Assembly: GCF_900289045.1 (NCBI RefSeq)
Contig: NZ_LT985188.1
Coordinates: forward strand, 1,116,001 to 1,180,000
Direction of reading: 5' to 3'
Length of the DNA stretch: 64,000 bases
From: Micropruina glycogenica
Lineage (GTDB): Bacteria; Actinomycetota; Actinomycetes; Propionibacteriales; Propionibacteriaceae
Part shown: piece after piece, positions 11,387 through 34,562 of the stretch
How positions within the stretch are numbered: position 1 is the first letter of the stretch
How the letters are laid out: each line of letters opens with the position of its first letter
The notes under the pieces: generated by a model
What the model saw: only the letters and a program-made list of their open reading frames with translations
Told to the model about the DNA's origin: nothing
The model's database searches: none
Program-made: the position numbers and the translations under genes

Positions 11387-11611
11387 TTACTTCTTCTTGC
11401 CGGCCGGCTGCTTGGCGTAGCGGCGCTCGAACCGGGCCACGCGGCCGCCGGTGTCGAGAATCTTCTGCTTGCCGGTGTAGAACGGGTGGCAGGCCGCGCA
11501 GACTTCGGCGTGAATGACGCCGTTCTTGGCGGTGCTGCGAGTGGTGAACGTGTTGCCGCAGGTGCAGGTCACCTCGGTCACGTTGTAGTCGGGATGGATT
11601 CCCTGCTTCAT
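11387..11611 (-). CDS. rpmE: 50S ribosomal protein L31, zinc-binding form
   Basis: The 74-residue protein is bL31. It keeps the CxC...CxxC zinc ligands (CTC near residue 16, CAAC near 38), so it is the C+ form, which can release zinc when replaced by a C- paralogue. [10 protein letters not shown] and HPFYTGKQK are family motifs. The ATG at 11611 is preceded by AAGGAG. A sigma-R-type promoter lies about 110 bases upstream (11724-11751). rpmE is a known sigma-R target in Streptomyces, so stress control here is likely. Confidence 0.96.
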
Positions 11612-11723: not shown

Positions 11724-11751
11724 AACGCCGCAGGGGGTGGGGTTCATTCCC
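11724..11751 (-). promoter_or_regulatory. Sigma-R-type promoter of rpmE
   Basis: On the minus strand GGGAAT (11751-11746) is followed by 19 bases and GTT (11726-11724). This matches the sigma-R/SigH consensus GGAAT-N18/19-GTT. The predicted leader to the rpmE ATG is about 105 bases. The same element precedes sigR and rho. Confidence 0.75.
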
Positions 11752-17033: not shown

Positions 17034-18830
<1,797 letters not shown>

Positions 18831-19028
18831 AAAGGTCCTTTCGGAACGTCCGGACGGGTGCCTACCTGCGGCCGGACAGCATTGGGAGGAGCGTGACTAG
18901 CTCCGGCACAGATCTTGGATACGGTTCATCTCCCCAAAACAGCGGGCTTTGATGAAAGGAGTCCTCGACGAATGGAATCGTCAGCCCCGACCTGTGGGGG
19001 GCGATTGGCTGAACTACAGCGCGTCTTC

Positions 19029-19034
19029 ACTGTA
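19029..19034 (-). promoter_or_regulatory. Extended -10 candidate promoter of rho
   Basis: On the minus strand TGC precedes TACAGT, an extended -10 for the housekeeping sigma factor, without a good -35. It lies about 200 bases before the rho ATG. The remaining leader 18831-19028 has no open frame I can support. Confidence 0.4.
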
Positions 19035-19058
19035 GCACCGCGCCGGTCAATTGCATGA

Positions 19059-19085
19059 AACCACGCCGCACCGGGCGGTATTCCC
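19059..19085 (-). promoter_or_regulatory. Sigma-R-type promoter of rho
   Basis: On the minus strand GGGAAT (19085-19080) is followed by 18 bases and GTT (19061-19059), an exact match to the sigma-R consensus. It lies in the gap just after the GT87 stop, directed towards rho. Confidence 0.72.
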
Positions 19086-19094
19086 GGTAGCCGG

Positions 19095-20309
19095 TCAGGT
19101 TTCGGCGGTGATGGCCTCGCCGTTGCGCAGGTGCAGTTGCGCGCGCCGTCGATCACGACCCCACGGGGTGTAGGCGGCCACGATGCTGCCGATCAGAATC
19201 GCCACCCCGAGATAGACGCCGAAGTTGTCGACCAGCATGTGCAACGGCGCGTAGGTCAGTTCGACGTTGTTGTCGCCCGGCAGCAGTTTGAACGGGGCGA
19301 AGGCCGTCCAGATCGAATAGAACAGGCCCGCGATTCGCAGATACTCGGGCAGCCGCTGGTTGCGCAGCAGCACGATGCCGAACGGCACGATCCACACGTA
19401 ATGGTGCGACCACGAGATCGGCGAGGCGAGCAGGCTGGTCAACCCGGCCAGGCACAGTGCGTAGGCGACCTCGCCGGCGCGATGCATCAGCACCGCCGCC
19501 ACCAGGCCGAGCACGGCCACCAGCACCGACAGCACCAGGCCCCCGCGGCTGGCCTCGCCCATCAGCCGGGTCCACACCCCCAGCACCGACTGGTTGGTCT
19601 TGAACACGATGCCGCTGTTGAGCCCGGAATCACCCGAGAGCAGCATGCCGAAGTAGGTCAGGGACGGACCCCAGAGCACCACGAAGCCGATGGCCGTGCA
19701 GGCCAGAAACGTGATGAAGCTGACGATGCCCGCCTTGCGCTTGCCGGCGAAGAAGTTGTAGGCGGCGATCAGCGCCGGGGTGAGCTTCACAGAGGTGGCC
19801 ACGCCCACCAACCAGCCTTCGGGCAGCAGCCGGCGGTTGAACACCGTCGGCCCGGGCATCGAATCGAGTACCGCGGCCGTGACCAGAAAGATCGCCAACT
19901 GGCCGAACCCCAGGGTTTCGCGTACCGGTTCGACAAGCCACACGATGGCGGTGGCGGCCAGGCTGAGCTGGGCACCCTTGAGGCCCAACCGATGCAGCAT
20001 GGCCATCAGGCACGCCACGTTCAACCCCAGCCACACCCACTGCGCCATGGCCAGCGGCATGATCGCGAACGGCACCGACAGCAGGGCGGCGAAGGCCGGG
20101 TAGATCCACGGCAGCCACGCTTCGACGTGGTAGAAATCCTGGCCGCGCAACACCAGGTCGCCGGTGCGGCGGTAGACGTCGAGGTCGATCATGGCCGGCG
20201 CCCACGGCTCGAAGTTGCCGCCGGGAATGGTCGTGCCGCCCGCGTACAGGGCGGCCAGCAGCGGTGGGATCGCCAATAGCACGACGAAGCCGATGCGGCG
20301 CAAGTTCAC
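19095..20309 (-). CDS. GT87-family membrane mannosyltransferase-like protein (DUF2029)
   Basis: The 404-residue polytopic protein resembles polyprenol-phosphate-mannose-dependent alpha-1,2-mannosyltransferases. About ten helices are visible. The first outside loop carries the acidic pair of the family in AMIDLDVYRRTGDLVLRG (Asp42, Asp44), followed by DFYHVEAWLPWIYPAFAALL. Later motifs are VKLTPALIAAYNFFAGK and SPISWSHHYVWIVPF. The start is GTG at 20309. The likely job is building lipoglycans or glycolipids of the envelope; the acceptor is unknown. Confidence 0.8.
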   Translation of the reverse strand: MNLRRIGFVVLLAIPPLLAALYAGGTTIPGGNFEPWAPAMIDLDVYRRTGDLVLRGQDFYHVEAWLPWIYPAFAALLSVPFAIMPLAMAQWVWLGLNVACLMAMLHRLGLKGAQLSLAATAIVWLVEPVRETLGFGQLAIFLVTAAVLDSMPGPTVFNRRLLPEGWLVGVATSVKLTPALIAAYNFFAGKRKAGIVSFITFLACTAIGFVVLWGPSLTYFGMLLSGDSGLNSGIVFKTNQSVLGVWTRLMGEASRGGLVLSVLVAVLGLVAAVLMHRAGEVAYALCLAGLTSLLASPISWSHHYVWIVPFGIVLLRNQRLPEYLRIAGLFYSIWTAFAPFKLLPGDNNVELTYAPLHMLVDNFGVYLGVAILIGSIVAAYTPWGRDRRRAQLHLRNGEAITAET

Positions 20310-33538: not shown

Positions 33539-33799
33539 TCAGCCGGCGGGAGTCTGGCGCACCACCACGGTCATCGTGGTGACCTGGGTGACCCGCACCC
33601 GCAGCGCGTCCGGGGCCTTCGAGGCCGTGCAGCAGCGCCGCACCAGGGTTCTGATGTGCTCTTCGACGCCGTAGGCGTCCAAGCAGGGCTCGCAGGCGTC
33701 GAGGTGGGCGCGAATGGCGTCGGCGTCGGCGTCGTCCAGCTCGTGGTCGAGAAACTGGTACAGGCGCTCGAGAGCGATGGCGCACTCAGGACTCGTCAT
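33539..33799 (-). CDS. rsrA: RsrA-type zinc anti-sigma factor
   Basis: This 86-residue ZAS anti-sigma factor binds sigma-R when reduced. The Zn/redox motif is Cys6, His32-x3-Cys36-x2-Cys39, with a further Cys56-Cys57 pair, as in Streptomyces RsrA and mycobacterial RshA. Disulfide stress should release zinc and free the sigma factor. The ATG at 33799 lies inside the sigR 3' end (14-base overlap) and has GGTGG upstream, so the two proteins are co-translated. Confidence 0.9.
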
Positions 33800-34448
33800 C
33801 GTCACCACCCCGACGGTTCAGGCCGTTCTCACGCGCGAAGTCAGACAGGGCGGTGCGCAGTTGGTTGCGACCCCGGTTCAGCCGCGACATCACGGTGCCG
33901 ATCGGGGTGCCCATGATCTCGGCGATCTCTTTGTACGAGAAGCCTTCGACGTCGGCCAGGTAGACGGCGAGCCTGAAGTCCGGCGAAAGGTCGTTCATGG
34001 CCTGGGTGACCGCTGAGTCGGGCATGCGGTCGAGGGCGTCCATTTCGGCGCTGCGCAGGCCGTCGGAGGTGTGCGCCTCGGCCCGGGCCAACTGCCAGTC
34101 TTCGATCTGGTCGCCGCCCGAGGTCTGCGGCTGGCGCTGCTTCTTTCGGTAGGTGTTGATGAAGCTGTTGGTCAGAATGCGGTACAGCCAGGCCTTCAGG
34201 TTGGTGCCGGGCGTGAACTGGTGAAACGACGCGAACGCCTTGACGTAGGTGTCTTGCACCAGGTCTTCGGCGTCGGAAGGGTTGCGGGTCATGCGCAACG
34301 CGGCGCCGTAGAGCTGATCGAGGTAGACCAGGGCATCGCGCTCGAAGCGCAGGGCACGCTCGGCGTCGGTCTCGGTGGTGGCATCGACCGCGGCACCGTC
34401 ACTCTGCTCGGCAGCGGTGAGGGCCTCGTCGGCGGCAGGAATGGTCAT
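33786..34448 (-). CDS. sigR: ECF sigma factor SigR/SigH (thiol-oxidative stress)
   Basis: The 220-residue ECF sigma factor has region 2 ([52 protein letters not shown]) and region 4 (LPDF-type [44 protein letters not shown]). Pairing with rsrA and an autoregulatory promoter identifies it as the mycothiol/thioredoxin regulator. The start at 34448 ([10 protein letters not shown]) suits the transcript from that promoter. The frame continues upstream to an ATG at 34565, adding 39 Ala/Pro-rich residues, similar in kind to the unstable long form SigR' in Streptomyces. Confidence 0.93.
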
Positions 34449-34535
34449 CACGTACGAGCCTAGCCGGTCGGCGAGCGCAGGCGCCGGAGCAGGGGTGGCC
34501 GGTGCGCTGGCGAACGTGCTGATCACAGTCGGTGC

Positions 34536-34562
34536 AACGGGACGCGCGGGCGCGGTATTCCC
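34536..34562 (-). promoter_or_regulatory. Autoregulatory sigma-R promoter of sigR
   Basis: On the minus strand GGGAAT (34562-34557), 18 bases and GTT (34538-34536) match the sigma-R consensus exactly. Transcription would start near 34529, leaving a leader of about 80 bases to ATG 34448. The element lies within the coding sequence of the possible longer isoform. Confidence 0.85.

Follow-up and report, generated by a model that had tools for sequence, protein, structure and literature searches.

The window analyzed here, a 64,000-nucleotide stretch corresponding to bases 1116001 to 1180000 of a source genome that consists of one contig of 3,844,677 bases, carries a rho gene, a mannosyltransferase-like gene upstream of it (for which the name GT87 is a label taken over from the preliminary description), and, between the two, a candidate sigma-R-type promoter (Table 1). 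The preliminary description had placed a GGGAAT box, an 18-nt spacer, and a GTT box just after the GT87 stop and pointing at rho, and we could confirm this arrangement as an exact match on the minus strand, from 19085 to 19059, which starts 9 nt past the GT87 stop codon and ends 228 nt ahead of the GTG start of rho. The best 80 named loci for the Rho protein of the window were actinobacterial throughout, with Jiangella, Tessaracoccus, Arachnia, and Nocardioides among the nearest.

TABLE 1 Features of the rho region and of related loci in the window (positions are those of the 64,000-nt stretch)
Feature	Position	Strand	Basis or remark
GGGAATACCGCCCGGTGCGGCGTGGTT	19059-19085	minus	exact GGGAAT-18-GTT match, between GT87 stop and rho
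-35 box GGGAAT, sigma-R-type	19080..19085	minus	pattern match; GGGAAT (3) or GGGAAC (1) in 4/6 genus genomes
-10 box GTT	19059..19061	minus	spacer from -35 box, 18 nt
Predicted sigma-R transcript start	19048..19054	minus	inferred from usual -10-to-start distance
TGCTACAGT, extended -10 of presumed housekeeping promoter	19029..19037	minus	same in 5/6 genus genomes, TGCTATGGT in the sixth
rho leader, ~200 nt	18831..19024	minus	conserved blocks in genus; possible stems
rho, 598 aa, GTG start at 18830	17034..18830	minus	TIGR00767, 637 bits
GT87-like mannosyltransferase gene upstream of rho	19095..20309	minus	NF009915, 143.6 bits, under cutoff of 413
Sigma-R-type promoter motif of rpmE (ribosomal protein L31)	11724..11751	minus	strict match; gene ~11387-11611
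sigR orthologue (start approximate)	33786..34379	minus	TIGR02947, 339.8-339.9 bits, cutoff 251.55
rsrA-like zinc anti-sigma gene	33539..33808	minus	overlaps sigR end; HLDACEPC; zf-HC2, 39.6 bits
Sigma-R-type promoter motif of sigR itself (autoregulation)	34536..34562	minus	strict match

Closer to rho lies an ordinary -10 element, TGCTACAGT, which had been proposed to provide basal expression. The element is real as a sequence; it is identical in five of the six genus genomes and lends support to the presumed basal promoter; likewise, GTGCTACAGT is unchanged in five genus genomes and reads GTGCTATGGT in the sixth. A sigma-70 scan of the region upstream of rho returned no full promoter, so TGCTACAGT would act as an extended -10 promoter. 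The conserved blocks of the leader that follows point to a possible leader RNA, for which the support for structure is weak. Possible stems are a GACGA/TCGTC hairpin and CAGGTCGG paired with a later GATCTG, and across the genus the pairing takes the form CAG(G/A)TCGG...GATC(T/C)G. In the consensus fold of the six sequences, two-sided changes occur in 7 of 44 pairs and the covariation energy term is positive. A strongly folded leader was rejected on the grounds that the single-sequence fold does not surpass that of shuffled sequences (z = 0.09), and an Rfam scan of the window returned two tRNAs and nothing else. Read by eye, the leader also holds a short reading frame (18897 to 18929, minus strand; MNRIQDLCRS), and an ATG occurs near its position in the other five genus genomes, with different lengths and later codons. 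The rho gene of Escherichia coli is autoregulated and has a long leader. Both leaders are long, with room for attenuation; unlike in E. coli, control of the gene described here would also be exerted at initiation, through an alternative sigma factor.

A candidate for that factor is encoded in the same window, about 15 kb from the rho site. The sigR orthologue is followed by, and overlaps, a gene whose product has a zf-HC2 match and an HLDACEPC motif, as would be expected for RsrA; this rsrA-like assignment is a match to a general zinc-finger family (Pfam zf-HC2). There are seven further, weaker TIGR02947 matches in the source genome, presumably to other sigma factors. Among 46 genomes checked, sigR scored above the cutoff in 44, which places the patchiness described below in the rho promoter and not in the regulator; no match above the cutoff was found in G005, a genus member listed as 84% complete. 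The promoter motif of sigR also precedes sigR in G001 to G004, was not found in the stretch that precedes sigR in G008 and G201, which represent two further genera of the same family, and is found ahead of sigR in G019 of family f4. In the window, this motif (34524 to 34562 region) ends 9 nt ahead of an in-frame GTG, which would allow a longer, possibly leaderless SigR isoform, recalling the unstable SigR' of Streptomyces described in part of one report (PMC5472188).

Four matches to the strict pattern GGGAAT-N18/19-GTT were found in the window, where 0.23 would be expected, and none of 100 shuffles reached this number. Three of them lie upstream of rho, rpmE, and sigR, and the fourth (58446) is within an ORF. 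The looser GGAAY form was not enriched in the window (6 versus 3.3 expected; 11 of 100 shuffles reach 6), and the case for the rho site is the strict motif together with its gene context and conservation. Genome-wide, the strict pattern is found 31 times and its mirror image 5 times, and the corresponding sums over the six genus genomes are 120 and 12. Thirty of the 31 matches were examined with their loci. They include sites upstream of rbpA (PF13397), of an ErpA-like Fe-S gene (TIGR00049 above cutoff; ErpA model 107.9 bits, below its cutoff of 117), and of a PIG3-like quinone oxidoreductase gene (model score below cutoff). A mechanical rule scores 19 of the 30 as overlapping ORFs of >400 bp, although 5 of these 19 also front named genes (quinone oxidoreductase, rbpA, rpmE, DUF4193, and ErpA-like). 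Judged by their predicted identities, the companions of the rho site in the source genome are a recognizable SigR regulon. Among the other matches, the DUF4193 gene (L021, C1 1548638-1548665), of a family of unknown function, is a candidate SigR target, and strict sites also lie 8 and 27 nt ahead of the starts picked for two luciferase-like flavin monooxygenase genes (L030 and L035).

In the portions of the literature available to us, the SigR promoter is given as GGAAT-N18-19-GTT, with hrdB and rbpA among its targets (PMC9205884), and infB and infC are likewise targets, the latter with a basal and a stress promoter (PMC5472188). Among known systems, one of the closest is the SigR-RsrA regulon, known from Streptomyces coelicolor and, as SigH-RshA, from mycobacteria and corynebacteria; the features of the window resemble it in the form of the promoter, in the presumed autoregulation of sigR, in having rpmE and rbpA as regulon mates, and in pairing a basal with a stress promoter as on infC. 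As is proposed for rho, hrdB, rbpA, infB, infC, and rpmE are essential information-processing genes with an extra SigR promoter; these genes work at initiation or in the ribosome, whereas rho would affect termination. The main-text passages found do not name rho as a target of SigR, SigH, or SigE. We therefore regard rho as a new candidate member of the SigR regulon, with the reservation that the 2012 list of SigR targets may include it.

The sigma-R-type reading of the rho site made in the preliminary description is supported by the conservation reported below, by the presence of sigR and an anti-sigma-like gene, and by the regulon mates that share the motif. In our judgment, the element is very probably a promoter for the ECF sigma factor SigR/SigH, producing a stress-inducible rho transcript alongside the housekeeping one. 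The site might instead serve a different ECF factor, such as one that resembles SigE and governs envelope stress, in which case rho would answer a different stress. Other ECF factors with similar boxes exist, the weaker TIGR02947 matches would provide candidates in the source genome, some of the site-bearing regions across the class have GGAAC in place of GGAAT (see below), and hrdD is a target common to SigE and SigR according to one report (PMC9205884; the SigE consensus is shown in a figure of PMC6767563). We nevertheless consider such a factor unlikely, as GGGAAT with 18 nt agrees with the published SigR form quoted above and the same strict motif stands ahead of sigR, rpmE, and rbpA in the source genome.

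Conservation of the motif upstream of rho in close relatives had been named beforehand as a condition without which the SigR reading would fail, and the motif is present in four of the six genus genomes. Three of them (G000, G003, and G004) have GGGAAT and one (G005) has GGGAAC; in each of the four, GTT follows after 18 nt, and the GGAAY box lies at nearly the same position relative to the rho start (-254, -251, -254, and -253 in G000, G003, G004, and G005, respectively). The spacers differ among the four, so the boxes have been retained while the DNA between them drifted. The two remaining genus genomes, G001 and G002, have no rho site, though both retain the sigR promoter motif, and none of 11 rows from the same family outside the genus has a site within 500 bp of the rho start.

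For a broader view, we used 197 genomes of the class and a set of 29 relatives. From the 197 genomes, 120 upstream regions were chosen by hand to span families with listed coordinates, with family f11 outside this upstream sample; three loci without a usable Rho match (L064, L240, and L262) and two second pieces of genomes already counted (L146 and L148) were excluded. With both sets taken together, GGAAY-18/19-GTT was found within 500 bp upstream of rho in 52 of 146 usable regions, a count in which one locus that has the site (L134) is scored as a miss. In comparison, the mean for shuffled regions was 2.32 with a maximum of 7, and there were 3 matches on the opposite strand and none to the mirror motif. 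The spacing between GGAAT and GTT was 18 nt in 17 regions and 19 nt in 27, with every other spacing from 10 to 30 nt occurring in at most 2 regions, and GGAAC replaced GGAAT in 8 of the 52 site-bearing regions.

The site is unevenly distributed among families. It was found in all 12 Streptomyces-like (f19), all 14 Streptosporangiaceae-like (f17), and all 4 f4 regions, as well as in 3 of 3 in f16, 2 of 2 in f33, and 4 of 17 in f1; family f2 has it in 3 of 4 by script and in the fourth (L134) by hand, where the site precedes a start that escaped the script. No site was found in f20 (0 of 14), f18 (0 of 10), f3 (0 of 9), or f32 (0 of 5). Overall, 16 of the 37 families sampled have at least one site and 21 have none, and this tally is the fairer number, since genomes that are related do not count as independent observations. 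A rule was used to choose start codons; it erred in several loci, as seen in L134, L182, L195, L214, and L217, where distances are approximate, and the start of L121 was set by hand. The two matches in f7, at -481 and -496, may be due to chance. Relaxed boxes (GGAAA/G, GTC, or a spacing of 17 or 20 nt) offered no consistent replacement in f20 and f3; GGAA[AG] is present in 5 of 10 f18 and 3 of 5 f25 regions. The f19 and f17 sites are nearly identical to those of named loci from Streptomyces (L044) and from Streptosporangium and Nonomuraea (L055 and L046), respectively. In the named set, which is rich in Micrococcales and Bifidobacterium and in which 1 of 79 regions is shorter than 400 bp, the site was found in 6 of 78 regions, compared with a mean of 1.0 in shuffles, 1 for the mirror motif, and 0 on the opposite strand, and no site-bearing region among these 6 belongs to Micrococcales or Bifidobacterium.

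These counts bear on whether the rho site could be a functionless chance match. Such a match would be in keeping with the lack of enrichment of the looser motif in the window, with the large share of strict genome matches that overlap ORFs, with the lack of the site in two genus genomes, and with the behavior of a strict site upstream of the rpoB start in the source genome (L011, C1 413451-413478). When the 700 bp upstream of rpoB were searched as a control in the same relatives (one locus having just 170 bp and another 664 bp), the motif appeared in 1 of 27 loci, that of the source genome, ruling out rpoB as a further conserved target; its site there reflects chance or a recent gain. For rho, in contrast, position and spacing are kept in most of the genus despite diverged spacers, and 52 of the 146 class regions have a site versus 2.3 expected. 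Promoter clutter arising by chance was accordingly rejected on the motif counts of window, genome, and class, and we hold a chance origin of the rho site to be very unlikely. As far as can be read from genomes, the sigma-R-type rho promoter is real, wide but patchy in its conservation, and located beside a conserved ordinary -10.

It is very improbable that genes beyond rho are the main ones served by the promoter and that Rho is a bystander. In favor of this reading, rpmE is a known target nearby and is reported as a SigH target in Mycobacterium tuberculosis (PMC4803200), and rho is followed by an L31-like start in two f2 loci (L135 and L139) and two f4 loci (L130 and L141, read by eye, where it comes after a second site), but rpmE in the window has its own sigma-R-type site 5.4 kb beyond rho with ORFs of other genes standing in between, and the second site lies directly behind rho in all four f4 loci, so the site ahead of rho is not simply the rpmE promoter.

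With the rho site taken as a SigR promoter, a course of events may be proposed by analogy with the known SigR-RsrA system. Rho determines which untranslated RNAs may go on. Oxidants would oxidize the zinc-thiol center of RsrA and free SigR, SigR-directed RNA polymerase would initiate near 19051 (in Streptomyces, the new 5' end is predicted just after the conserved GTAGTGTT), and rho mRNA would climb above the basal level supplied by TGCTACAGT, presumably leading to more Rho and more termination. Actinobacteria with the rho site thus probably raise Rho production when oxidants attack their proteins, and the promoter could be a weak one.

The Rho protein of the window contains no cysteine, and among 99 Rho sequences that could be read over 480 residues, some of them truncated at the C terminus, 75 have none past the first 30 residues, which makes the replacement of thiol-damaged Rho an unlikely purpose. 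More likely, the extra Rho would clear transcription that is stripped of ribosomes as translation falters in the same stress. Antibiotics that block translation also induce SigR, as described in part of one report (PMC4921905), and a demand for extra Rho when transcripts lose their ribosomes would fit both the thiol and the antibiotic triggers. We tentatively put forward, as a possibility that we rate below even, a conserved circuit from SigR to Rho in which genome-wide termination is raised upon thiol oxidation or an antibiotic block of translation, cutting stalled, ribosome-free transcription as ribosomes (rpmE) and polymerase (rbpA) are being rebuilt under SigR. If this is true, lineages without the site would respond lacking this brake. 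If rho answers thiol stress, the actinobacterial oxidative response would tune termination in addition to protein repair and initiation. Related genera that differ in whether they have the site offer a natural comparison, and its occurrence in all 12 Streptomyces-like genomes makes the proposal testable in a standard laboratory strain.

Two repeated elements were encountered along the way. One strict site is present in four identical copies in the source genome (L012, L024, L025, and L031), three of which sit 25 nt before ORFs sharing their first 50 residues; the one ORF that was scanned is an IS630 transposase, and this insertion sequence may carry a stress promoter. In the window, GGGGACGGTTC forms a dispersed repeat of five copies, all on the minus strand (20851, 24879, 34641, 34665, and 60858), against 0.08 expected.
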